A stretch of 64,000 nucleotides of DNA, taken from NCBI GenBank assembly GCA_003222395.1, contig QHWB01000032.1, positions 186,001-250,000 of the forward strand, read 5' to 3'. Made by a program: the position numbers and the translations under genes. The DNA comes from Acidobacteriota bacterium (GTDB lineage Bacteria > Acidobacteriota > Vicinamibacteria > Vicinamibacterales > CAVVIG01). This document shows, piece by piece, positions 39,005 to 51,606 of this stretch. Position 1 is the first letter of the stretch; every line of letters starts with the position of its first letter. Under the pieces are notes generated by a model. The model saw nothing but the letters and a program-made list of their open reading frames with translations. It was not told the origin of the DNA and did no database searches.

Positions 39005-39067
39005 CGCTCGGCTGAAAGTCTGGCGCTACAGGCCAAAGATTGGTAGCGCAAGCCTTTCAGGCGAGCG
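39005..39067. repeat. Palindromic element between tsaD and mtnA
   Basis: Left arm at 39005-39030 (CGCTCGGCTGAAAGTCTGGC...) and right arm at 39041-39067 (TGGTAGCGCAAGCCTTTCAG...) are imperfect complements of ~26 nt, with a 10-nt loop. The right arm contains the mtnA stop codon (TGA at 39057-39059 read on the minus strand). Same family as 52865 and 60989. Confidence 0.65.
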
Positions 39068-40112
39068 TCACCTGTTCGAAGCCTCGCTTCAGCGATTCCG
39101 CGTACGGCGGCCTGAAAATGCCGCGCTCCGTGATGATGCCGGCGATGAGATGGTGGGGCGTGACGTCGAACGCGGGATTCCAGACGTGCGCGCCGTCGGG
39201 CGCGAGCTGCAATCCGCCGACGTGCGTCACTTCGCGCGCGTTCCGTTCTTCGATCGGAATGTGGTCGCCGTCGGCGGTGTTGAGATCGATCGTCGACATC
39301 GGCGCCGCGACGTAGAACGGAATTCTGTGCTCGCGCGCGAGGACGGCGACCGTGTACGTTCCCACCTTGTTCGCCGTATCGCCGTTGGCGGCGATGCGAT
39401 CGGCGCCGACGATCACGAGATCTACTTTTCCCTGCCGCATGAGCGCGCCCGACATGTTGTCGGTGATGACGGTCGTGTCGATGCCGTCGCGGACCAGCTC
39501 CCAGGCCGTGAGCCGCGCGCCCTGCAGGAACGGCCGCGTCTCGTCGGCGAACACGACGACGCGCTTTCCTTTCTCGACCGCGCCGCGGATGACGCCGAGC
39601 GCCGTGCCGTATCCGGCCGTGGCCAGCGCGCCCGCGTTGCAGTGCGTCAGGATGCGGGCATCGGCGGGCACCAGGTCGGCGCCGAACGCGCCCATCGCGC
39701 GACAGCTCGCGACGTCTTCGTCGTGAATCAGCTGCGCCTCCTGGTCGAGGCGATCCTGGATCTGATCGACCGACTCGCCGACCTCGACCGCCGCGGCGAA
39801 CTCGCGCTTCATCCGATCGATGGCCCAGAACAGGTTCACCGCCGTCGGCCGCGTCGCCGCCATCAGCTCGCAGATCTTGTAGAACTCCGCCGCCAGCTTT
39901 TGCGTGCCGGTCGATTTGCTGTTCCTGATCCCGAGCGCAATGCCCATGGCGGCCGCGACACCGATCGCCGGCGCGCCCCGGATGACCATCGACTTGATCG
40001 CGCGCGCGACTTCCGCCGCCGTCCTGCAGCGAACGTACACTTCTTCAGCGGGAAGCTTGCGCTGATCGATCATCACGACCGCATCAGCTTCGCGCGCTAT
40101 CGTCGGCAGCAT
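39057..40112 (-). CDS. mtnA: S-methyl-5-thioribose-1-phosphate isomerase
   Basis: 351 residues. It isomerises MTR-1-P to MTRu-1-P in methionine salvage. Active-site Cys is in [19 protein letters not shown] and the Asp in [31 protein letters not shown] is the phosphate-binding start. It follows the fused cytidine deaminase gene and precedes tsaD. No MTA phosphorylase is nearby, so the purine nucleoside phosphorylase in the same run might supply MTR-1-P, which is only a suggestion. Confidence 0.96.
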
Positions 40113-40126
40113 TCACCGATTCTACC

Positions 40127-40160
40127 GGGTTCGAGGTTCGGGGTTCCGAGTTCCGAACCC
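40127..40160. repeat. Period-7 repeat GGGTTCG/GAGTTCC-type
   Basis: Heptamers GGGTTCG, AGGTTCG, GGGTTCC, GAGTTCC, then GAACCC, so the ends are complementary and can fold back. It lies between mtnA and the fused cytidine deaminase gene. Confidence 0.6.
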
Positions 40161-40167
40161 AGACAAG

Positions 40168-41013
40168 CTACAGCAGTCGCGCATCGAACGGCAGCGGCAG
40201 CAGATTCTTCAGCTGATGCGTCCCCGTCTCTTCCTGCAGGTTGGCCAGCACGATTTCGAGATTGCCGCCGAACTCCCAGAGGATCTGACGGCACGCGCCG
40301 CACGGCGGCGTCGGCGATTCTGTGTCGGCGACGATGGCGATCCGCGTGAACATGCGGTGGCCTTCGGACAGCGCCTTGAACATCGCCACTCGCTCGGCGC
40401 AGATCGTCAGGCCATAGGTGGCGTTCTCGATGTTGCAGCCGGTGACGACGGTGCCGTCGGCGGTCTCGATGGCCGCGCCGACCTTGAACCTGGAGTAGGT
40501 CGCTTCCGCGAACTCGCGCGCGCGCCGCGCCGCCGAGACGAGGTCCACTTCGCCGGGACGATCGCGCAGCCGCCTCGGGCCGATCCGGCGGTCGCGTCCG
40601 GCGCGGCGGTCCGCGCCGGCGGGGTTGCCCGAGTCTTTCATGCGCCGATCGAACCCGGTGCGCCGATCCGCCTCGATGCGCGCGCGCCGGTCGTCGAGGA
40701 GGAGCCGGAGCATGTCCGGCCGGCGCACGCCGTTGACGACGTGCGTCACCCGCGCAATCTGGTACAGCTTCGACGTGATCGCCTGCACGTCCGGGTCGGC
40801 GTGGCACTTCTCGGCTGATTTCGCGTCGGTCCAGTTGCGCACCGCGTAGAAGCGCAGCGGGTGCGCTTCGTCGCGAACGACGACCCCGCGTCCGTAATTC
40901 TTGGCGATGAGGATCGCCTCGAAGGCGGTGGCGAGCGTCTGGAACTCCGCCTCGTGTCCTTCCATGACGTCGACGAGGGCAACCGACAGGCGCCGCGTAT
41001 CAGAGCTGCTCAA
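40168..41013 (-). CDS. Fusion: ABM-like dimeric alpha-beta barrel domain + cytidine deaminase
   Basis: 281 residues. Residues about 8-95 (VALVDVMEGHEAEFQTLATA, then RFYAVRNWTDAKSAEK) look like an antibiotic-biosynthesis-monooxygenase/heme-oxygenase-like ferredoxin fold. A highly basic linker with repeated DRR (DRRARIEADRRTGFDRRM, later DRRAGRDRRIGPRRLRDR) joins it to a cytidine deaminase domain (AREFAEATYSRFKVGAAIET; TICAERVAMFKALSEG; PPCGACRQILWEFGG) with three Cys zinc ligands, the tetrameric Cdd type that deaminates cytidine to uridine. The gene overlaps the purine nucleoside phosphorylase gene by 14 nt. The N-terminal domain's role is unknown; a gene-fusion artefact is unlikely because one frame covers both. 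Confidence 0.85.
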   Translation of the reverse strand: MSSSDTRRLSVALVDVMEGHEAEFQTLATAFEAILIAKNYGRGVVVRDEAHPLRFYAVRNWTDAKSAEKCHADPDVQAITSKLYQIARVTHVVNGVRRPDMLRLLLDDRRARIEADRRTGFDRRMKDSGNPAGADRRAGRDRRIGPRRLRDRPGEVDLVSAARRAREFAEATYSRFKVGAAIETADGTVVTGCNIENATYGLTICAERVAMFKALSEGHRMFTRIAIVADTESPTPPCGACRQILWEFGGNLEIVLANLQEETGTHQLKNLLPLPFDARLL

Positions 41014-41818
41014 CGATGTTCTCCACCAGCGCGCTGAACTGGCCGCGGATTCGACGCGCGGTCGCCATCACCTCGGCATGATCGAGCGGCTTCGGCAGCA
41101 CGCCTGCTGCCATGTTCGTGATGCACGAAACGCCCAGGACCTCCATGCCCATGTGGCGCGCGACGATGGCTTCGGGCACCGTGGACATGCCGACCGCGTC
41201 GGCGCCGATCGTTCTCAAATATCGGATCTCCGCCGGCGTTTCGTAACTGGGACCCAGCAGAGCCACATAGATGCCGCGCGGGAGGCGCAGGCCAATCGCC
41301 CGTCCGGCCTTGTCGGCAATTCTACGCAGCCGCGCCGAATACACTTCGGACATATCGGGGAATCGCGGGCCAAACCGATCATCGTTCGCACCGACGAGCG
41401 GGTTGGTCCCCATCAGGTTGATGTGATCGTCGATGATCATCAGCGCGCCCTGCGAGAAGCCGGTATTCACGCCTCCGGCCGCGTTGGTGAGAATCATCGT
41501 CCTGACGCCGAGCAGGCCGAGCGCGCGGATGGCGAACGTCACCGTCGGCCCGCCATGGCCTTCGTACATGTGGCAGCGGCCGGCCAGCGCCGCCACCGTG
41601 CGGCCGCGCACCGTTCCGATGACGAGCTTGCCGTCGTGACCGATGACGCGCGAGACGGGCCAGTGCGGAAGGTCCCCGTACGGCATCGTCACCGCGTCGG
41701 CGAGCGTTCCGGCGAAATCGCCGAGGCCCGAACCAAGCACGATTCCGATCTGCGGAACGTCGCGGATCTCCGATCGAACGGCGTCTGCAGCTTCCCTGAC
41801 CTTGTCGTAATAATCCAT
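41000..41818 (-). CDS. Purine nucleoside phosphorylase (class I, trimeric type)
   Basis: 272 residues from the ATG at 41818. It splits purine nucleosides with phosphate. Motifs are IGIVLGSGLGDFAG, GRCHMYEGH, ILTNAAGGVN, VGMSTVPEAIVARH and GVSCITNMAAG, with the Asn of SCITN that selects 6-oxopurines in PNP over MTA phosphorylase. It belongs to the salvage run, downstream of the nucleoside transporter. Confidence 0.95.
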   Translation of the reverse strand: MDYYDKVREAADAVRSEIRDVPQIGIVLGSGLGDFAGTLADAVTMPYGDLPHWPVSRVIGHDGKLVIGTVRGRTVAALAGRCHMYEGHGGPTVTFAIRALGLLGVRTMILTNAAGGVNTGFSQGALMIIDDHINLMGTNPLVGANDDRFGPRFPDMSEVYSARLRRIADKAGRAIGLRLPRGIYVALLGPSYETPAEIRYLRTIGADAVGMSTVPEAIVARHMGMEVLGVSCITNMAAGVLPKPLDHAEVMATARRIRGQFSALVENIVEQL

Positions 41819-41827
41819 CGTGAAGCC

Positions 41828-41848
41828 GAACCCGGAACCTCGAACCGT
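41828..41848. repeat. Period-7 repeat GAACCCG/GAACCTC/GAACCGT
   Basis: Three adjacent heptamers with the frame GAACC at 41828, 41835 and 41842, in the 38-bp gap between the transporter and purine nucleoside phosphorylase genes. Confidence 0.5.
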
Positions 41849-41856
41849 GTGGTCGG

Positions 41857-43098
41857 TTACAAGAGAAACCCCGCGATCGTTGCCGTCATGAAGTTCGCGA
41901 GCGTTCCGGCGAACATGGCGCGCAGACCGAGCCGCGCCAGATCGTGCCGGCGGTTCGGCGCGAGCGCGCCGATGCCGCCGATCTGGATGCCGATCGAGCT
42001 GAAATTCGCGAAGCCGCACAGCGCAAACGTGCAGATCGTGAACGACTTCGGATCGAGCTGCGCCTTGAGCGGGCCGAGCTGCGAGTACGCGACGAACTCG
42101 TTGAGCGCCATCCGCGTGCCGAGCAGGTTGCCGATCGTGGGCGCGTCGCGCCACGGCACTCCCATCGACCAGGCCACCGGAGCGAACACCCATCCGAAGA
42201 TCTGCTGCAGGCTCAGGTTCGCCAGACCGAGCAGCGCGTTGACGAGCGCGACGAGCGCGAGAAACGAGATGAGCATCGCGCCGACGTTCAGGGCCAGGTG
42301 CAGTCCCTCGCCGGTACCCCGTCCGGCGGCGTCGATCACGTTGACGTCGGTCTTCTCAACCTCCAGCTTCACCGTCCCCATCGTTTTCGGGACTTCGGTT
42401 TCCGGGACGAGCATCTTCGCCATCATGATCGTGCCGGGCGCCGTCATGATCACCGCGGTGAGCAGATGTTTGGCTTCGATGCCGAAGAGGATGTACGCCG
42501 CCATGATGCCGCCGGAGATGTGCGCCATCCCCGACGTCATCACCGTCATCAGCTCCGAGTAGGTCATCTCCGGCAGGTACGGCCGGATCGTCAGCGGCGC
42601 CTCGGTCTGGCCCATGAAGATGCTCGCCGCCACGTTCAGCGACTCGGCGCCGCTCGCCTTCATCACGCGTTGCATCACGATCGCGAACAGGTGGACGATG
42701 ACCTGCATGACGCCGAAGTAGTAGAGGATGGCGAACAGCGCGGCGATGAAGATGATGGTCGGCAGCACCTGAAACGCGAAGATCGTCGCGTACTGCGAGC
42801 CGTCGGGCCCGAGCGCGGCGGTCATCACGCGACCCCACACCGTTCCGTTGCCGAGCGGTCCGAACACGAACGCGGCCCCCACGCCCGCAAAGCCGAGCAG
42901 CTTCGTGATGAGACTGCCAAGCGTGGTGAAGACCCGCTGTCCGATCGCTGTCTTGAGGACGATGACGGCGAACACAACCTGCAGACTGACGCCCCAGGCG
43001 ACCGTCGTCCAGTTGATCGCGCGCCGGTTGGTCGAGAATCCGTAGCCGATGCCCAATATGACGAGCGCTCCGAAGATCGGCTGCAGGATCCGGAGCAT
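41857..43098 (-). CDS. Concentrative nucleoside transporter (CNT/NupC family)
   Basis: 413 residues with about ten membrane segments. GFSTNRRAINW near the N-terminus, FVFGPLGNGTVWG, SIFMGQTEAPLTIRPYLPEM and NLLGTRMALNEFVAYSQL are CNT signatures for nucleoside and cation binding. It imports nucleosides with H+ or Na+. Its start overlaps the stop of the pyrimidine-nucleoside phosphorylase gene, so uptake and cleavage are made together. Confidence 0.95.
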   Translation of the reverse strand: MLRILQPIFGALVILGIGYGFSTNRRAINWTTVAWGVSLQVVFAVIVLKTAIGQRVFTTLGSLITKLLGFAGVGAAFVFGPLGNGTVWGRVMTAALGPDGSQYATIFAFQVLPTIIFIAALFAILYYFGVMQVIVHLFAIVMQRVMKASGAESLNVAASIFMGQTEAPLTIRPYLPEMTYSELMTVMTSGMAHISGGIMAAYILFGIEAKHLLTAVIMTAPGTIMMAKMLVPETEVPKTMGTVKLEVEKTDVNVIDAAGRGTGEGLHLALNVGAMLISFLALVALVNALLGLANLSLQQIFGWVFAPVAWSMGVPWRDAPTIGNLLGTRMALNEFVAYSQLGPLKAQLDPKSFTICTFALCGFANFSSIGIQIGGIGALAPNRRHDLARLGLRAMFAGTLANFMTATIAGFLL

Positions 43099-44402
43099 CA
43101 GCGCACCTCTCCGACGATCAAGGGGGCGCGAGGCGGCTGGTCGTCGCGGATCGCGATCGCCTGCGTCGCGAGTCCCAGCGCCGTCTGGAGCCGTGCGCGA
43201 TCGCGGTAATGCAGTTCCAGCAGCGGATCGCCGGTGCGGACGGCGTCGCGAACGGTGGCTCGAATCGAGATGCCGACCGCCGGGTCGACCGCATCCTCCA
43301 CGCGATCGCGGCCGGCGCCGAGCGCGACCGAGGCACGGCCGATCAGTTCGGCGTCGAGGCGCGCCACGTATCCAGACCGCTCGGCCTCCACGACGTGGCG
43401 ATTGGGCACATGCGGCAGGCGCGAGTAGTCGTCGACGACATGTGGATCGCCGCTCTGGGCTTCGATGATCTGACGGAAGCGCTCGAGCGCGGCGCCGGTT
43501 CGAATCGTCTCCCGCGCCCGTCGATCCGCATCAGCGAGATCCTCGGCCACCTTGCCCAGCACGAGCATCCGCGCCGCGAGCTCGATCGACACGTCCACCA
43601 GGTCGGTCGGACCGCCGCCTTTCAGCACCTCCAGGCACTCGATCACTTCGAGAGCGTTGCCGACGGCGCGGCCGAGCGGCGCATCCATCGCCGAGATGAC
43701 GGCTTCGGTCTTCACGCCGGAGCCGTTCCCGATGGCGACGAGCGATTCGGCGAGCCGCCGCGAGTCGGCTTCGGTCTTCATGAATGCGCCGCTGCCAGTC
43801 TTCACGTCGAGCACCAGCGCGTCGATCCCTTCGGCGATCTTCTTGCTCATGATCGAAGCGCTGATGAGCGGAATGCTCTCGACCGTGCCGGTGACGTCGC
43901 GCAGCGCGTAGAGCCGTTTGTCGGCGGGCGCGATTTCTGCGGTCTGCCCGATCATCACGCACCGCGTCCGCGCGAGCGCGCGCTTCATCTCGGCGAGCGA
44001 CAGGTCGACGCGAAAACCGGGGATCGATTCGAGCTTGTCGAGCGTGCCGCCCGTGTGGCCGAGACCGCGGCCCGACATCATCGGTACCGGCACGCCGCAC
44101 GCCGCGGCAATCGGCGCGAGAATCAACGACGTCTTGTCGCCGACGCCGCCGGTACTGTGCTTGTCCACCTTGACGCCGTCGACGTCGCGGAGGTCGAGTC
44201 GCACGCCGGAGGCAACCATGGCCTCGGTGAGCCACGCCGTCTCCTGCGCCGTCATGCCGCGGAGCACGACGGCCATCAGCAGCGCTGCGGTCTGGTAATC
44301 GGGAACGGTACCGGCGGTTGCGCCGTCGACGAAGTAGCGAATTTCTTCTCGGGACAGCACACCGCCGCCCCGTTTCTTCAGGATGACGTCTACGGCTCGC
44401 AC
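43098..44402 (-). CDS. Pyrimidine-nucleoside/thymidine phosphorylase
   Basis: 434 residues from a GTG at 44402. It cleaves pyrimidine nucleosides to base and (deoxy)ribose-1-phosphate. The family block VKVDKHSTGGVGDKTSLIL is intact, followed by MMSGRGLGHTGGTLDKLESI, LYALRDVTGTVESIPLI and the Lys of VLDVKTGSGAFMK. First gene of the salvage operon, divergent from the HEAT/HD-GYP module (29 bp), so the two units share one short promoter region. Confidence 0.95.
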   Translation of the reverse strand: MRAVDVILKKRGGGVLSREEIRYFVDGATAGTVPDYQTAALLMAVVLRGMTAQETAWLTEAMVASGVRLDLRDVDGVKVDKHSTGGVGDKTSLILAPIAAACGVPVPMMSGRGLGHTGGTLDKLESIPGFRVDLSLAEMKRALARTRCVMIGQTAEIAPADKRLYALRDVTGTVESIPLISASIMSKKIAEGIDALVLDVKTGSGAFMKTEADSRRLAESLVAIGNGSGVKTEAVISAMDAPLGRAVGNALEVIECLEVLKGGGPTDLVDVSIELAARMLVLGKVAEDLADADRRARETIRTGAALERFRQIIEAQSGDPHVVDDYSRLPHVPNRHVVEAERSGYVARLDAELIGRASVALGAGRDRVEDAVDPAVGISIRATVRDAVRTGDPLLELHYRDRARLQTALGLATQAIAIRDDQPPRAPLIVGEVR

Positions 44403-44431
44403 GGAATTGGGGCAGTATACTTCGAGACTCC

Positions 44432-46651
44432 ATGACCCAGGCGTCCCAGTTGTCCCCGGAGCTGTCGCGCGGTCTGCTGCAGCTGGCGCGAGCGCTGATC
44501 GTCGCCGCGCGCAACTGGTCTCTCTATCCGCCCGAACATCCAACCGTCGGCGTGTCGGTGAAGCGTCTGTGCGATGCCATCCACGCGTCGTCGCTCGGCG
44601 CCGTGTTCTCGATCGGGATCACGCCCGACACGCTCATGATCGAAAGCACCGCCGCCGATTCGTCGCAGACGGCCGTCGCTGAAGCCGCCGCGCTGCTGCA
44701 CGATCGCGATCTGCTGCGCGTCACCTTTCTCGGCGACGTGCCGCCCGAAGCGATCCATGCCTTCCTGACGATCCTGGCGCTCGATCCCGCCGATCGGCGC
44801 GCGCGCGGCGGGCCGGCGCGCATCTGGGAAATGGACGGCCACCCGTCGCTCGCGCTGGAACAAATCGATTACCAGAAAGTCCTCGCGCGCGAGGCAGGCG
44901 ACATTCCCGAACCGGCCAAGCGCGACGACGTCTGGAAATCGATCGTCACGTCGATCGCGGGCGGCCAGAAAGCCTTCTTCGACGAACGGCAGCAGGCGCG
45001 GCTGCTCGAGATCGCCGGAAGCGTGCCCGACATCGCCGACCTCGCCATCGCCGTCGCGGCGCCCAAATGCACGCTCGGCGGGTCGCCGATGATCACGCTG
45101 CAGGCGGCCACCGTCCTCGCCGCCTTCCGCCACTTGACGAGCATCGTCGGCGTCATGGCGCCCGATCGCATGCCGGAGGTGATGAACAACCTCGCCGCCG
45201 CCGCCATCCAGCTCGACGCGCACCTGATGATGCAGATGATGCAGGCCGAGGAGAATCCGGCTGCGGGAATCGCGATCGTACAGGGGCTCGCCGGCGCGTT
45301 CGACGATGCGAAAGTGGCGCAGCTGCTGGCCACCGCCCTGGCGCTCGACGGCAAAGCGAGCGATCGTCTCGCCACGATCTTCAACACGATCGCTCCCGAC
45401 GAGGACCGCAAGCAGCGCGTGCTGAAGATGACGCGCAGCATGCTCACTGAGACCGACTTCGGCAAGACGGGCCAGTTCCAGGTGCTCTGGACGTCAATGG
45501 AGACGCTGCTCGTCTCCTACAACGACAAGCCGTTCGTATCCGATGGGTACAAGACCGCGCTCGACGGCCTCGGCGGCCGCGCCGACCGGATGGCAACCGT
45601 CGGCGAGCTGCCGCCGGAAGCGGGCGAATGGTTGACGAGCCTCGGGCAGGAAAACGTCCGCAGCCTCTCGGTCCGCATGCTGATCGACTTGCTGGCGCTC
45701 GAGAAGGACGCGAAGCGCGCCGCCGAGCTCGCTCAGGACATGGCGGTGCTGGTCGAGGACCTGCTGATGTCGGGCGCGTACGACGACGCGCTGACGGTGA
45801 CGACGGCGCTCGCCAGGCGCGGGAACTCGTCGCTGATCGGCCGCGACGAATGCCGTCAGGCGCTCGATCGGCTTGGGGAGTCGCTGGCTCTGCTCGAAAC
45901 GGCGGCGCTCATCGGCGACGTCGACGAGGACGGCTGGAGCGCCATCAAGGCGGTCATCGAGACGATCGGTCTCCCGGCGATCGAGTCGCTGAAGCCCGTG
46001 GTGACCGTCGAGGCCGATACGCTGACCACGTCGCGCGCCGAGGAAACAATCGTCGGGTTCGGCGCGCCGGCGGTCACGCGTCTGGCGTCGCTCGTGGCCG
46101 ACCCGCGCTGGTTCGTTCAGCGGCGCGGGGCGCGCCTTCTCGGCCGGATTGCCGCGCCCCAGGCAGTTCCGCTGCTGCAGCCGCTCGTCCGCCAGTCCGA
46201 TCCGCGCGTCGCGCGCGAAGCGATCTCGGCTCTGACGGCCATCCCCGATCCGTCGGCGGCACGCGCCATCCACACCGTGCTGCGCGCGGCGACGGGCACG
46301 CTGCGAACCGCGGTGATCGAGGCGCTGGTGGGCAGCCGCGACCCGCGCGTCGTCCCCGTGCTCGTGCGGATCATCGAAGAAAGCGATCCGCTGGGAAAGG
46401 ACCACGACGTCGTGCTGCAGACCGTCGGGGCGCTCGCGACGATGGGCACCGACGCCGCCGTCCAGCCGCTGATGGCGCTGGCCGGGCGCCGCCGCTTTCT
46501 GGGCGGCCGGAAGCTCCGGGCCCTCAAGGAGACCAGCGTCGACGCCCTCCTGAAGATCGGCACCCCAACAGCCGAAACGACGTTAAGAGAAGCTGGGCAG
46601 ACGGGCGACCGGGCCCTGAAAAAGATCATCGCCGCGCGCCTCAGAAACTGA
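44432..46651 (+). CDS. HEAT-repeat protein with LYPxxHP N-terminal domain (module copy 1)
   Basis: 739 residues. An N-terminal domain of ~120 residues starts with LARALIVAARNWSLYPPEHP (LYPPEHP at 31-37) and continues LMIESTAADSSQTAVAEAAA; the same domain opens the next three genes. The middle is all-helical without a recognised family (shared VLWTSMETLLVSYNDKPFVS segment with the homologue at 48002). The C-terminal ~200 residues are HEAT repeats (PLLQPLVRQSDPRVAREAIS, and VPVLVRIIEESDPLGK). Probably a scaffold. It is 1 bp from the HD-GYP gene, which starts with TTG and no clear SD, so translation is likely coupled. Confidence 0.8.
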   Translation: MTQASQLSPELSRGLLQLARALIVAARNWSLYPPEHPTVGVSVKRLCDAIHASSLGAVFSIGITPDTLMIESTAADSSQTAVAEAAALLHDRDLLRVTFLGDVPPEAIHAFLTILALDPADRRARGGPARIWEMDGHPSLALEQIDYQKVLAREAGDIPEPAKRDDVWKSIVTSIAGGQKAFFDERQQARLLEIAGSVPDIADLAIAVAAPKCTLGGSPMITLQAATVLAAFRHLTSIVGVMAPDRMPEVMNNLAAAAIQLDAHLMMQMMQAEENPAAGIAIVQGLAGAFDDAKVAQLLATALALDGKASDRLATIFNTIAPDEDRKQRVLKMTRSMLTETDFGKTGQFQVLWTSMETLLVSYNDKPFVSDGYKTALDGLGGRADRMATVGELPPEAGEWLTSLGQENVRSLSVRMLIDLLALEKDAKRAAELAQDMAVLVEDLLMSGAYDDALTVTTALARRGNSSLIGRDECRQALDRLGESLALLETAALIGDVDEDGWSAIKAVIETIGLPAIESLKPVVTVEADTLTTSRAEETIVGFGAPAVTRLASLVADPRWFVQRRGARLLGRIAAPQAVPLLQPLVRQSDPRVAREAISALTAIPDPSAARAIHTVLRAATGTLRTAVIEALVGSRDPRVVPVLVRIIEESDPLGKDHDVVLQTVGALATMGTDAAVQPLMALAGRRRFLGGRKLRALKETSVDALLKIGTPTAETTLREAGQTGDRALKKIIAARLRN

Positions 46652-46652
46652 C

Positions 46653-48005
46653 TTGCATATCAAGAAGGCCGAGGAACTGATACGCCGGCTTGCGGCAGCG
46701 CTGCGGGGTACCGAGCTCTATTCGCCGAACCACCCCCTCGTGCAGCGCGGACTCGATACCCTGAATGCCGCCGCGACCGAAGCGCTCCAGGCGGCGCCGG
46801 CCATCGTCATCGGCTTCATCGGCGACGAAGTCGTCGTCGACGGCGACCGCCTGCCGCGCGGGACCGCGGCGCTCGTCGGCTTCGCGCGCGATCTGCGCGA
46901 GCGCGGCATCGAGAAGATCACGCTGACGCGCGGTCTCACGCGCGACGAGATCAGGAACCTCATCGCCGTCTTCAGCGACCGGACGTCAGCGCCGCCGCTC
47001 GCCGACCGCCTCGCGGCCAGAGGCGTCCGCCACGTGACGCTCGGCCGCATCGTCGTCGAAGAGGTGACCGACGAACAGGCCGGCATCGCGGCCGCCCGCC
47101 GCGTGTACGCGACGGCGGTCGAAACCGCCGAGTCGCTGTGGGAAGCGGCCAAGGCCGGCGACAAGCCCGATCCGACCGCCGCGCGGAAGATCATCGACGG
47201 CCTCGCGAAGCTGGTCACTCAGGACCGCACCTCGCTGATGGCGCTGACGGCACTGAAGAAGTACGACAACTACACGTTCACGCACATGGTGAACGTCTCG
47301 GCGCTCGCGATGGCGCAGGCGCGGGCGCTCAACGTCGACGGAACGCTCCTGCGCGAATTCGGCTTCGCCGCGCTGATGCACGACATCGGCAAGGTCAACA
47401 CGCCGCTCGAGGTCCTCAACAAGCCGGACAAGCTCACGAAGGACGAGTTCGACGTGATGAAGCAGCACGTCGTCGACGGCGCGCACATCCTGCGGCGGAC
47501 GCCGGAGATGCCTGCGCTCGCGCCGATCGTCGCCTTCGAGCATCACCTGAAACAGGATCTGAGCGGCTATCCGGAGAACATCGGCAGCCGCAAGCTGAAT
47601 CTCTGCACGATGATCGTGTCGATTGCCGACGTGTTCGACGCGCTGCGCAGCAACCGGCCGTACCGGCAGGGGCTCGCGACGAACCGCATTCGCGCGATCA
47701 TGGGCGAGCAGGGCAACCCGGCGTTCAATCAGCCGCTGCTGAAGCGATTCGTCAACCTGATGGGCCTCTTTCCAGTCGGCAACCTCGTGCGATTGACCAC
47801 CGACGAGCTCGCGGTCGTCTCCGCGGAACATCCGACCGATCCGTTCCGGCCGCAGGTGAAAATCATTCAGGATGCGAAGGGTGAATTCCTGGAAGAGCCG
47901 CTGCTCGCGAACACGTGGGAACATCAAGGCGACGACGACGAGCGCGCCGTCGTCGAGGCGGTCGATCCCGAGCCGTTGGGCATCGATCCGTTGAAGTATC
48001 TGTGA
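46653..48005 (+). CDS. HD-GYP domain protein with LYSPNHP N-terminal domain (module copy 1)
   Basis: 450 residues, TTG start. The N-terminal domain (LYSPNHP at 22-28; IVIGFIGDEVVVDGDRLPRG) is homologous to that in the HEAT partner. The HD-GYP domain has YTFTHMVNVSALAMAQARAL, LMHDIGKVNTPLEVLNKP (HD at 243-244), MKQHVVDGAHILRR and FEHHLKQDLSGYP, close to but not identical with the HHERxDGxGYP consensus (Gly replaced by Leu). HD-GYP proteins hydrolyse c-di-GMP or related dinucleotides with a bi- or trinuclear metal centre; the change may weaken catalysis. It overlaps the second HEAT gene by GTGA. Confidence 0.88.
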   Translation: MHIKKAEELIRRLAAALRGTELYSPNHPLVQRGLDTLNAAATEALQAAPAIVIGFIGDEVVVDGDRLPRGTAALVGFARDLRERGIEKITLTRGLTRDEIRNLIAVFSDRTSAPPLADRLAARGVRHVTLGRIVVEEVTDEQAGIAAARRVYATAVETAESLWEAAKAGDKPDPTAARKIIDGLAKLVTQDRTSLMALTALKKYDNYTFTHMVNVSALAMAQARALNVDGTLLREFGFAALMHDIGKVNTPLEVLNKPDKLTKDEFDVMKQHVVDGAHILRRTPEMPALAPIVAFEHHLKQDLSGYPENIGSRKLNLCTMIVSIADVFDALRSNRPYRQGLATNRIRAIMGEQGNPAFNQPLLKRFVNLMGLFPVGNLVRLTTDELAVVSAEHPTDPFRPQVKIIQDAKGEFLEEPLLANTWEHQGDDDERAVVEAVDPEPLGIDPLKYL

Positions 48006-50245
48006 GCGAAAAGCCAGCGCCGTTGGGACCCGAGCATGCATCGCGTCTCATCGAATTCGCACGCGCCTGCAAGGCCGCGGCGCGGGCGGTCGTGCTCTAT
48101 CCATCCGGGCATCCGGCGATCACCGCGACGCTCGGTCGAATCGTGCAGATCACGTCGATAGCCTCGCTGAACGCGCCGCTTCGGTTGACGGTTCTCCCCG
48201 AGTCGCTGCTGCTCGACGAACGCGCGCTGGCGCGCCCGGAATCGGCGGTCGGCGAATTGGCCGCGCTGCTGCATAGCCACCTGATCGGCCAGCTGACGGT
48301 CAATCCCGGCGGCGATGCCGACGCCTGGCGCAGCTTCCTGCTTCTGCTCGCGCGGACGCCCGAGTCGATTCGCACCGACGGCGGCATCTCGCGCGTGTGG
48401 GCGACGATGGCGGGACGGCACGTCGAGCTGCGCGAGATCGACTACTCCGAAGTGCTGCGCGAGCGCACGGGCGGCGAGTCGGCCGTGTGGGACAAGGTGC
48501 TCGCCAATTGCCTGCAGGGCATGGCTTTCGATCTCGACGAGGCGGCGGTCAAGGAGCTGCTCGGGATCGCCGGTGACGCCGATCGCCTGGCGGACCTGAT
48601 GGCCGCGGTGGAAGAGGGCGCGTCCGATTCGGGCGGGGTCGGCGCGAAGACCACGGCGCTGATGCGGATGCTCCGCGGCATCATCGACGCGGTGTCGAAA
48701 GCCGATCCCGATCGCCTCGAGCCGGTGTTGGGGAACATGGCGTCGGCGGTCGGCCGGCTGTCGGCGGAAATGCTCATGGGGCTGCTCGAGCAGCGCGAGG
48801 TCGACGAGGGGCCGCAGCTGATGAACGCGGTGGTCAGCCGCATGACCGACGGCGCGATTGCGCGCTTCGTCGCGCGAAACGTCATCGAGGAAACGACGGC
48901 CACCGATCGCCTCGCCGTCGCGTTCCAGTCGCTCGTGCAGGATGCGGAGCAGCGGCCGCGGCTGCTCACGCTGGCGCACGAGGACGTGAAGGCATCGCCG
49001 CTCGGCAGCACGGAAGGCTTCGAATCGGTCTGGAACCATGTCGCCGGGAAGCTCCTGACGTCGTATTCGGACAAACCGTTCGTCGGGAACGAGTACGCGC
49101 GCGAGCTGTCGGGCGCGCGGACGCAGGCCATCGAAGTCGAGCAGGTCAACGACGATCCGCCCGAGCGCATTTCCGCATGGCTCAGCACCGTCGCGACCAC
49201 TCAGCTTCGGGCGCTCGACCTGACGTTGCTGCTGGATCTGCTGCGGATCGAGCCGGACGACGCGAAGTGGGGCGAGATGATGACGCCGGTCGTGCGGCTC
49301 CTCGAAGATCTGCTGCTCGTCGGCGATTTCGACGCCGCGGTGCAGCTGATCGAGGTACTCGTCGGCGAAGGGCGCACCGGCGCGACGACGGGGCGCCGCC
49401 AGCATGCGATCACCGCGATCGACATGCTCATCGCCGGCACGATGATGCGCCACATCACGACGCACCTCGCCACGATAGACGCGGCGCAGTTCGAGCGCGT
49501 CAAGGCGATGTGCGTGTCGCTCGGCGAAGTCCTCGTCCGTCCGCTGGCCGAGACGCTGTCGGTCGAAGAGCGCCCCCGTACGCGCGAGCGGCTCGCGTCG
49601 ATTCTGCTGGCGTTCGGCCCCGCCGGACGGCGGACGGTTGAACGGCTGAAGAGCTCGCCGAACGCGGCGGTGCGGCGGACGGCGATTCTGCTCATGCGGC
49701 AGTTCGGCGGGAGCGAGGCGCTGCCGGATCTGACCGAGCTGCTCGACGACAACGAGCCGCAGGTGCAGCGCGAAGCGGTCCGCGCCATCCTCAACGTCGG
49801 GACCGACGCCGCCTATCAGATTCTGCAGCAGGCGCTCGCGAGCGGCACCGAGCGGTCGCGCGAGGCGATCATGCAGTCGATCAGCCTCGTGCGCGACGAG
49901 CGCGCGACGCCGCTGTTCGGCTACATCGTCCGAAACATCGATCACCGCGGTCCGCTGGCGCCGGTGTACCTGCGCGCCATCGAGTCGCTCGGCGTCTTGA
50001 AGGATCCGGAAGGAGTCGTTCCCCTGAAGGAAGCACTGTACAAGGGCGAATGGTGGGCGCCGCGGCGCAGCGCGGTGCTGCGCGGCGCCGCCGCCGCGGC
50101 GCTCGCGCGTATCGGCACGTCGGAAGCCATCGCGGTGCTGCAGGAAGCGGCCGCGACCGGCAAGCGCGGCGTCCGCAACGCGGCGAAATCGCACCTGACC
50201 GAGGCGCCGGCGCACCGACGAGCCGCCGCGAGAGGAGACGCATGA
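48002..50245 (+). CDS. HEAT-repeat protein with LYPSGHP N-terminal domain (module copy 2)
   Basis: 747 residues from a GTG at 48002 that overlaps the preceding stop. Same architecture as the gene at 44432: FARACKAAARAVVLYPSGHP (LYPSGHP at 32-38), SLLLDERALARPESAVGELA, then VWNHVAGKLLTSYSDKPFVG, and C-terminal HEAT repeats (ALPDLTELLDDNEPQVQREA). Identity to copy 1 is modest, so the duplication is old. Ends with an ATGA overlap into the second HD-GYP gene. Confidence 0.82.
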   Translation: MSEKPAPLGPEHASRLIEFARACKAAARAVVLYPSGHPAITATLGRIVQITSIASLNAPLRLTVLPESLLLDERALARPESAVGELAALLHSHLIGQLTVNPGGDADAWRSFLLLLARTPESIRTDGGISRVWATMAGRHVELREIDYSEVLRERTGGESAVWDKVLANCLQGMAFDLDEAAVKELLGIAGDADRLADLMAAVEEGASDSGGVGAKTTALMRMLRGIIDAVSKADPDRLEPVLGNMASAVGRLSAEMLMGLLEQREVDEGPQLMNAVVSRMTDGAIARFVARNVIEETTATDRLAVAFQSLVQDAEQRPRLLTLAHEDVKASPLGSTEGFESVWNHVAGKLLTSYSDKPFVGNEYARELSGARTQAIEVEQVNDDPPERISAWLSTVATTQLRALDLTLLLDLLRIEPDDAKWGEMMTPVVRLLEDLLLVGDFDAAVQLIEVLVGEGRTGATTGRRQHAITAIDMLIAGTMMRHITTHLATIDAAQFERVKAMCVSLGEVLVRPLAETLSVEERPRTRERLASILLAFGPAGRRTVERLKSSPNAAVRRTAILLMRQFGGSEALPDLTELLDDNEPQVQREAVRAILNVGTDAAYQILQQALASGTERSREAIMQSISLVRDERATPLFGYIVRNIDHRGPLAPVYLRAIESLGVLKDPEGVVPLKEALYKGEWWAPRRSAVLRGAAAAALARIGTSEAIAVLQEAAATGKRGVRNAAKSHLTEAPAHRRAAARGDA

Positions 50246-51606
50246 CGGCGCCCCGCTTCCAGCTCGCCGACGAGTTGCTGCGGCGCCTTGCGGCGGCGCT
50301 GCGGTCGTCGCAGCTGTACTCCAAGGGTCACCCGATCATCGGGCGCAATCTCGAGCAGCTGTCGGCGGCTGTCCAATTGCTCCACAGCCTGCAGCCGACC
50401 ACCGTGGTCGGTTTCGTCGGCGACGAGATCATCGTCGACGACATGCCGGTCGCGCGCGCGGACGTGCTCGGCGGAATCGTCCGCCGGCTGCAGCAGGCCG
50501 GGATCGAGCGGATTACGTTCGACCGCGGCGTCACCAGCGACGAGCTCTCGACGTTCATCGAGGCGGTGACGGCGATCGAGGTGCGCGAGGGCGACGAAAA
50601 CGGGCCGGCGTTTCCGGCGCTGCCGCACATCCGCGTCGGCCGCGTCTCGATCGAGCAGCGCGTCGAAGGCAGCCTCACCGACATGGCGACGATCAAACGT
50701 CTGTACCACGATGCCGTGTCGGTCGCGACGAGCCTGTGGGAGAGCGCCGAAACCGAAGGCAAGCCCGACGCGACGATAGCGCGGACGATGATCGACGGTC
50801 TCGCGCAGGCGGTGGCGCAGAACCGGACGGCACTGCTGGCGCTGACGACGCTGAAGAACTACGACAACTACACGTTCACGCACATGGTGAACGTCTCGAT
50901 TCTGACGATGGGACAGGCGCGCGGGCTCGGCATCGACGGGCCGCTGCTGCGAGAGTTCGGTCTGGCGGCGCTGATGCACGACATCGGCAAGGTGCGCACG
51001 CCGCTCGAAGTGCTCAACAAGCCGGACAAGCTCACCGACGACGAATTCGCGATCATGAAGCGGCACGTCGTCGACGGCGCGGAAATCCTGCGGCAGACGG
51101 CCGACATCCCCGCGCTCGCGCCGGTCGTCGCCTTCGAGCATCACCTGCGTCTGGACGGCACCGGCTATCCGGGTGGCGCCAAGAGATCGTCGCTCAACAT
51201 CGGCACGATGCTGTGCAGCATCGCCGACGTCTACGACGCGATGCGCTCGCAGCGCGCCTACCAGCAGGCATTTCCGTCGGAGCGGATCCTCCAGGTGCTG
51301 AAACGCAACGACGGCACGCAGTTCGATCAGCACCTGGTGCGCCGCTTCGTGCAGCTGATCGGCATCTACCCACCCGGGAACCTCGTGCGGCTGAACACCG
51401 GCGAGGTCGCCGTCGTTCTGAAGGTCTACGCGCCGGATCCCTACCGGCCGCAGGTGCGCGTGCTGATTTCGCGCGACGGCACGCGGCTCGAGCTCCCCTG
51501 CGAAATCGAGTTGTGGAACGTCAGCGAGGATCCCCAGCGGCCGTCATCGGTCGTCGCGCCACTCGATCCGGCCACGTACAATCTCGATCCGCTGGTGCTG
51601 ATGTGA
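50242..51606 (+). CDS. HD-GYP domain protein with LYSKGHP N-terminal domain (module copy 2)
   Basis: 454 residues from the ATG at 50242. N-terminal domain: LLRRLAAALRSSQLYSKGHP (LYSKGHP at 25-31), VVGFVGDEIIVDDMPVARAD. The HD-GYP core has LMHDIGKVRTPLEVLNKPDK (HDIGK at 246-250), MKRHVVDGAEILRQTADI and FEHHLRLDGTGYPGGAKR, a full DGxGYP motif unlike copy 1. Likely the active phosphodiesterase of the pair. Followed by a heptamer hairpin. Confidence 0.92.
   Translation: MTAPRFQLADELLRRLAAALRSSQLYSKGHPIIGRNLEQLSAAVQLLHSLQPTTVVGFVGDEIIVDDMPVARADVLGGIVRRLQQAGIERITFDRGVTSDELSTFIEAVTAIEVREGDENGPAFPALPHIRVGRVSIEQRVEGSLTDMATIKRLYHDAVSVATSLWESAETEGKPDATIARTMIDGLAQAVAQNRTALLALTTLKNYDNYTFTHMVNVSILTMGQARGLGIDGPLLREFGLAALMHDIGKVRTPLEVLNKPDKLTDDEFAIMKRHVVDGAEILRQTADIPALAPVVAFEHHLRLDGTGYPGGAKRSSLNIGTMLCSIADVYDAMRSQRAYQQAFPSERILQVLKRNDGTQFDQHLVRRFVQLIGIYPPGNLVRLNTGEVAVVLKVYAPDPYRPQVRVLISRDGTRLELPCEIELWNVSEDPQRPSSVVAPLDPATYNLDPLVLM

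Follow-up and report, generated by a model that had tools for sequence, protein, structure and literature searches.

An unnamed N-terminal domain shared by the HEAT-repeat and HD-GYP proteins of a duplicated two-gene module in Acidobacteriota

Descriptions of HD-GYP enzymes mostly place a sensory or receiver domain in the same polypeptide: REC, GAF, PAS, Cache, DUF3391 and DUF3369 are named N-terminal domains of these proteins, and RpfG carries a receiver domain. As far as the cited excerpts go, RpfG is an HD-GYP protein with GGDEF/PilZ partners that acts partly by hydrolysis-independent protein contacts (PMC4159591, PMC4877007), its contact to GGDEF proteins requiring the GYP motif (PMC4159591). 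Here we describe a locus of an Acidobacteriota bacterium, situated at positions 44432-51606 of the window (the whole stretch of 64,000 nucleotides analysed, from contig QHWB01000032.1), in which four genes, referred to as A, B, C and D, alternately encode HEAT-repeat and HD-GYP proteins, and in which one homologous domain of ~140 residues opens all four proteins. Both HD-GYP proteins and HEAT proteins are of known kinds, but the literature searched seems to contain no description of the shared domain or of the paired module. Searches on HD-GYP together with HEAT repeats, Acidobacteria or Myxococcus xanthus, or on HEAT with cyclic dimeric GMP (c-di-GMP)/GGDEF, showed no such pairing among the papers listed (12 of 55 for Myxococcus xanthus), judged by title and abstract start, an earlier description in subscription papers or preprints being possible; excerpts of PMC4159591, PMC4877007 and PMC7159879 likewise contain no description of a HEAT/HD-GYP pairing.

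B and D resemble known HD-GYP phosphodiesterases (PmGH, 4MCW; the 3'3'-cGAMP-specific phosphodiesterase 3, 5Z7C; Bd1817, 3TM8) in their HD_5/HD match, and the D-x-Y-T-x-x-H, HD-x-G-K, H, HH, GYP and D-x-x-D residues of PmGH align with both. They differ from these enzymes in carrying HHL for HHE (both proteins) and DLSGYP (B), in the coupling of their genes to that of a HEAT scaffold, and at the N-terminus, where PmGH has a GAF domain whereas the domain of B and D matches no Pfam domain. Unlike REC-HD-GYP proteins of the RpfG type, B and D show no receiver domain by Pfam at E-values up to 1; moreover, the RpfG contact is made via GYP, whereas the contact proposed below would be made by a dedicated N-terminal domain on both partners. 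A and C are like PBS-lyase/HEAT_2 proteins in their C-terminal HEAT_2 and HEAT_PBS repeats, and unlike them in possessing the shared domain, a long unmatched region and an HD-GYP gene partner. The features of the locus are as follows.

44432..46651, plus strand: gene A, 739 residues; HEAT-side shared domain at the N-terminus, helical region, HEAT repeats at the C-terminus (open reading frame, ORF; Pfam HEAT_2, E 1.6e-13)
44456..44894, plus strand: shared N-terminal domain of A, with LYPPEHP (hhalign against the B domain 97.7%, E 2.3e-12; AlphaFold2 pLDDT, the predicted local distance difference test score, 91.5)
46082..46327, plus strand: best HEAT_2 stretch in A, residues 551-632 (Pfam)
46653..48005, plus strand: gene B, 450 residues, TTG start; HD-side shared domain and HD-GYP domain (ORF, Pfam)
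46653..47072, plus strand: shared N-terminal domain of B, with LYSPNHP (profile comparison; AlphaFold2 pLDDT 88.5)
47262..47762, plus strand: HD-GYP domain of B, with HHLKQDLSGYP and conserved metal ligands (Pfam, alignment)
48002..50245, plus strand: gene C, 747 residues, GTG start; HEAT-side shared domain and HEAT repeats (ORF, Pfam)
48017..48472, plus strand: shared N-terminal domain of C, with LYPSGHP (profile comparison)
49637..49879, plus strand: best HEAT_2 stretch in C, residues 546-626 (Pfam)
50242..51606, plus strand: gene D, 454 residues, ATG start; HD-side shared domain and HD-GYP domain (ORF, Pfam)
50242..50676, plus strand: shared N-terminal domain of D, with LYSKGHP (profile comparison)
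50863..51363, plus strand: HD-GYP domain of D, with HHLRLDGTGYP and conserved metal ligands (Pfam, alignment)

A preliminary description of this DNA, made from its letters, had proposed four overlapping or abutting genes in the order HEAT, HD-GYP, HEAT, HD-GYP, and both the reading frames and Pfam bear this out. A and C have C-terminal HEAT_2 and HEAT_PBS matches above the Pfam cut-off (HEAT_2 scores of 51.2 and 72.6 bits, respectively, against a gathering score of 27.7), separated from the shared domain by a long region with no significant Pfam match, and B and D match HD_5 and HD; identity reaches 49% between B and D and 27% between A and C. The gene spacing at this locus fits the translational coupling claimed for the array, A and B lying 1 bp apart and 4-bp overlaps joining B to C (GTGA) and C to D (ATGA), but tight coupling is not universal among orthologous loci: the start of D falls within the end of C in 8/18 of them, within ~20 bp in 7/18, and 100-175 bp off in the remaining 3/18.

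The homology of the four N-termini was assessed with profiles built from orthologues, 19-26 sequences per gene (excluding locus L033, in which frame breaks interrupt A and B). When HEAT-type and HD-GYP-type profiles were compared with hhalign, the four cross-type probabilities were 97.7, 96.1, 95.9 and 95.1% over 115-133 colinear columns, while controls stayed at or below 3.55%, whether one profile was reversed, columns were shuffled (5 per pair) or different 140-residue stretches of these proteins were used. Wider profiles drawn from three phyla (71 HEAT-side and 65 HD-side copies, locus L160 omitted) gave 99.75%, with E 2.5e-27 over 145 columns, and 0.5% when one was reversed. The claim of a domain common to both protein types thus stands, with a length nearer 140 than the ~120 residues first given, and all four of the LYPPEHP-type motifs are present as described. 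AlphaFold2 models of the A and B domains, both confident, run through the same order of elements (helix-helix-strand-strand-helix-strand-helix-helix-strand) at nearly equal positions, A having extra helices; together with the sequence homology, this order supports one fold for the two domains. The conserved columns are mostly hydrophobic, with the addition of a Y-x-x-x-[HN]-P turn between helix 1 and helix 2, whose first position is Y in 69/71 HEAT-side rows, with 38 Y and 26 H among the 65 HD-side rows, and whose H/N position holds one of these residues in 56/71 and 64/65 rows, respectively. From its sequence, the domain looks more like a small binding domain than like an enzyme.

The absence of a name for this domain, also noted in the preliminary description, was borne out by every library consulted. 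Pfam gave nothing significant over the first ~140 residues of A-D (TPR in A, E 0.23; Arm_4 in D, E 0.076, at residues 136-204), and NCBIfam and PHROGs scans returned no family for it. When 30 members of the domain were searched, 11 Pfam families were matched weakly (best E 0.013, at most two members each), none of them REC, GAF, PAS, Cache, DUF3391 or DUF3369. A profile search of PDB sequences found no match better than E 0.14, and Foldseek found nothing at E 0.001 or better for the A and B models against the PDB or for the A model against viral models; the best row of the B model was PelD (E 0.18, template modelling score, TM-score, 0.18), GAF-containing chains appeared among the low-scoring rows, and VIA-align over the Foldseek list gave Z-scores of 3.7 at most. 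There is thus no solved relative in these PDB and Foldseek searches, which does not by itself prove a new fold. A PADLOC scan at E 0.001 likewise supplied no name for the domain and no specific full-length defence match, with a weak partial HEAT match for A, weak HD matches of B to Cas3 models and none for C and D.

Beyond the locus, the domain was sought in the genomes of four phyla, labelled here by the title of a reference genome record. In the genome of origin there are six copies, forming three modules, two at 44432-51606 and one on another contig (C30:138302, C30:140488); a PF13487 search of this genome gave 16 HD_5 matches, three of which are module proteins. The third module (L091:5479-9293, G000:C30:138302-141663) is divergent, with an upstream protein lacking any Pfam match and an HD domain missing the D of DGxGYP. 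The domain was present in at least 83 of 247 genomes of the bacterium's own phylum (at most 16 candidates scored per genome), in 62 of 100 genomes of the Nitrospirae-titled phylum, and in at least 106 of 188 of the Myxococcales-titled phylum (at most 21 candidates scored), or 105/187 without its reference genome, whose copies share a single short contig, apparently an acidobacterial contaminant. With that reference set aside, no match in the Myxococcales-titled phylum is better than E 1e-27, against many own-phylum matches below 1e-30, and we therefore infer that the two phyla are distinct. None of 200 genomes matched in the phylum of a Mariprofundus-titled genome, a set with no positive genome to prove the sensitivity of the search, and a plasmid protein search with B gave 538 records, none covering 80% of the query and the best mainly matching its HD-GYP part.

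The neighbourhood survey proposed in the preliminary description reveals a recurrent pair of a HEAT-side and an HD gene in three phyla. Among 20 regions read per phylum, hand-picked from the match lists and in many cases chosen for two close matches, two adjacent same-strand copies of the domain were found in 14/20 (own phylum), 19/20 (Nitrospirae-titled) and 17/20 (Myxococcales-titled), one of these 17 pairs being a single fused ORF; five further pairs were seen in additional regions. The upstream partner carries HEAT repeats in 12/14, 19/19 and 6/17 of the pairs, respectively (detected with our own profile, or with Pfam for L161; the repeats of L156 lie in a separate ORF), and the downstream partner an HD domain in 13/14 (L074 is cut by the contig end), 19/19 and 16/17 (none in L156). 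The HD gene came first in no pair, every HD domain detected being downstream. Without hand-picking, a second copy lies 1-3 kb away on the same strand in 110 of 150 listed places in the Nitrospirae-titled phylum and in 98 of 150 in the own phylum, and some places listed as single proved to be pairs on reading (e.g., L135, L136, L137, L140, L141). A conserved third partner was not found: the largest neighbour family at E 1e-15 occurred in only 7/80 regions, five of them without the standard pair. The array is in this sense a local duplication of an old two-gene module and not a peculiarity of one operon, the preliminary description having covered one instance of a wider pattern.

The HEAT-side unit also occurs fused to other signalling domains. 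A Ser/Thr kinase precedes the shared domain in 5/17 upstream-type proteins tested in the Myxococcales-titled phylum, several of which had been examined for their long ORFs. In addition, five proteins from four genomes of the own and Nitrospirae-titled phyla join GGDEF, an AAA_16 ATPase, one or two shared domains and then HEAT repeats, and are predicted to be diguanylate cyclases fused to a STAND-like ATPase. These GGDEF fusions, together with the HD pairing, tie the HEAT-side unit to domains that make as well as break cyclic dinucleotides. Their positions are the following.

L162:2135-5284, L173:2632-5637, L174:2407-5706, L175:2246-5602, L178:4634-7612: kinase-fused HEAT-side proteins beside an HD-domain gene
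L083:582-4859, L084:4862-9139, L187:3933-8219, L182:112-3036, L129:1748-5668: GGDEF-AAA_16 proteins (HEAT unseen in L182, where the contig is cut)

A maximum-likelihood tree (quick search) was inferred from 164 domains, 138 of which were labelled by the hidden Markov model match that follows in the same ORF, the 26 unlabelled ones being uncounted and domains shorter than 96 residues left out of the label count. One branch, with support 94, divides HEAT-side from HD-side for 136/138 labelled domains, and the HEAT/HD label changes 3 times on the tree, whereas 500 label shuffles gave 46.1 changes on average and never fewer than 39. One of the two misfits is the first domain of L160, labelled HD only because an HD domain lies later in the same ORF. 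This ORF (L160:2990-6535, 1182 residues) joins both module halves in a single protein: its first half is 36.7% identical to the best upstream partner over 534 columns, its second half matches downstream partners (41.8% over 486), and its two domains fall on opposite sides of the tree. We read the two partner types as having diverged before these phyla did and as having been inherited together.

The interpretation that we favour, and hold to be fairly probable, is that the HEAT protein acts as an input scaffold that docks the HD-GYP output enzyme through the paired sister domains and controls it. The locus would accordingly comprise two copies of a module with an upstream HEAT-type scaffold and a downstream HD-GYP protein, each beginning with one of two sister versions of the unnamed alpha/beta domain; these versions would dock onto each other, and the HEAT protein would bring the input, either as a bound partner or, in other lineages, as its own fused kinase, and would control hydrolysis or binding of a cyclic dinucleotide (presumably c-di-GMP or another one) by the HD-GYP protein, in this direction rather than the reverse. 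Assigning input to HEAT and output to HD-GYP is supported by gene order, pairing, the L160 fusion, and the kinase and GGDEF fusions. The suggestion in the preliminary description that the domain helps to assemble a signalling complex is likely correct on genomic context, namely the pairing in three phyla, the two-sided tree and the one fusion. More tentatively, as an expectation we hold with less than even confidence, these modules might represent an undescribed and widespread class of cyclic-dinucleotide signalling, in which mutual recognition between a HEAT receiver (free, fused to a Ser/Thr kinase, or fused to both a diguanylate cyclase and a STAND-like ATPase) and an HD-GYP effector would run through dedicated sister domains of uncharacterised fold, decayed HD domains acting as nucleotide sensors or structural switches. 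An old unnamed domain appears, in three phyla, to join an HD-GYP enzyme with a separately encoded scaffold protein; should this pairing be physical, it would offer a testable route for the control of second-messenger turnover in little-studied bacteria, and it puts a name-worthy domain where the profile libraries searched leave the sequence blank.

Several observations weigh against docking between scaffold and enzyme. Conserved operons can pair proteins that never touch, and the HEAT side is not obligatorily paired, as solitary domain-HEAT proteins occur (L075, L078, L080, L090, L171, L172). HEAT repeats are difficult to detect in the Myxococcales-titled phylum, where they rise above the Pfam cut-off in 3/17 upstream-type proteins tested and are seen below it in 3 more. 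On the maximum-likelihood tree, L081 is a real exception, an HD-side domain on the HEAT side, and a less careful FastTree of the same data splits only 122/138 domains, with GGDEF-type and solitary HEAT-side domains joining the HD side, and HD-side domains from L087 and L091 joining the HEAT side. The lysine equivalent to K225 of PmGH is kept in 10/13 own-phylum and 15/19 Nitrospirae-titled rows, and in 2/17 Myxococcales-titled ones (two of the 17 blank); with the K225-type residue lost from most HD domains of this last phylum, and no HD domain found in L156, a hydrolytic function cannot be universal. With the solitary proteins, the faint HEAT repeats and the decayed HD domains of this third phylum in mind, the function may be sensing or structural in some lineages.

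Other explanations have to be weighed against scaffold-enzyme docking. The HEAT-type rows share only 17-27% identity with the B domain, which might suggest that the N-terminal resemblance stems from chance or composition; the chance of this is practically negligible, given profile probabilities of 95-99.75% against controls of at most 3.55%, the predicted element order shared by the A and B models, and the recurrence of one domain family in about 250/535 genomes searched in three phyla. A homodimerisation module, on which each protein pairs with itself while HEAT and HD-GYP proteins are merely co-expressed, would account for the two sides forming separate sister groups, as expected if each binds its own kind, and for the solitary domain-HEAT proteins; PmGH is a homodimer according to the excerpted report (PMC4159591). 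We nevertheless consider it unlikely, because it leaves unexplained both the recurrence of the same domain on two unrelated neighbouring proteins in three phyla and the fusion of the two halves in L160. Less plausible still is a sensor domain by which both proteins bind the same small ligand independently, in the manner of PAS or GAF in other HD-GYP proteins. The N-terminal position is usual for a sensory domain, the turn between helices 1 and 2, with its Y (or H) and its H/N-P pair, could make up a site, and GAF-containing chains are found among the low-scoring Foldseek rows mentioned above, but the conserved columns are otherwise mainly hydrophobic, and no Foldseek match reaches E 0.001, though this absence does not exclude a fold.

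A further alternative concerns the two enzymes, as the preliminary description had taken the DLSGYP of copy 1 and the DGTGYP of copy 2 for signs of an inactive/active pair, which would make B a dead regulator of D. B does lack one glycine of the HHExxDGxGYP consensus that D retains (both keep GYP, and both have HHL for HHE), and module HD domains with lost catalytic residues exist elsewhere. Aligned with 4MCW, however, B and D both keep, as do the orthologues read, the equivalents of the PmGH metal ligands H189, H221, D222, H250, H276, H277 and D305, as well as those of D183, K225 and D308, the catalytic K and D among them; the eighth ligand position, E185, is Y in both proteins, which by sequence fall in the Y/F group of HD-GYP proteins, a group lacking this ligand in the excerpted report (PMC4159591). 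Nor do the sequences support DLSGYP as a mark of inactivity: it is invariant in 26/26 B sequences, alongside a DGxGYP form in 19/19 D sequences (L033 excluded), other modules show DLSGYP, DLTGYP, DYSGYP, DFSGYP or DMTGYP, among them L139 and L082, from genomes with only two domain matches, and, according to the same excerpts, alanine mutants of the PmGH GYP motif suffered no substantial loss of activity (PMC4159591). A dead copy 1 is hence very improbable, and B and D are, by their conserved residues, likely of the cyclic-dinucleotide phosphodiesterase type.

A search of one genome collection with B gave 28 loci, of which 26 are relatives with 65-87% identity, most of them titled Acidobacteria. 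On contigs of sufficient length, the genes of the orthologous loci follow the order A, B, C, D, except in L029 and L025, where the downstream flank gene lies ~2.2 kb after B and neither C nor D is seen. In the L029 genome, scoring of all 46 candidates yielded A and B alone. An original lack of C and D in L029 was considered and dropped, because its A and B sequences fall within the respective clades of a quick tree; this lineage probably lost both genes. Contigs with copies of B at 80% and 70% identity also appear under L014 (titled Myxococcales) and L026 (titled Acidimicrobiia); these may be mis-binned acidobacterial contigs, a suspicion raised for L014 because it gives the same identities as L015.

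The flanking genes are conserved in most orthologous loci that reach them, and comprise what we take to be opposite-strand nucleoside salvage genes upstream and a methylguanine-DNA methyltransferase-like gene with a sigma factor downstream. The minus-strand cluster at 39057-44435, presumably for nucleoside salvage (phosphorylases, a transporter, a deaminase and an MtnA-like protein), diverges from gene A near its start, and its gene nearest to A recurs in 19/26 orthologous loci; the other 7/26 loci start in or near A or B. As this divergent cluster is absent among the recurrent neighbours elsewhere, it was kept out of the proposed mechanism. Regarding individual gene forms, L087:4419-6827 holds a HEAT-side gene that a stop (one TAG within the domain) divides between two frames, beside an open HD-side gene, and L183:4350-5012 is a stand-alone open frame of 221 residues, without a Pfam match, that consists largely of the shared domain.

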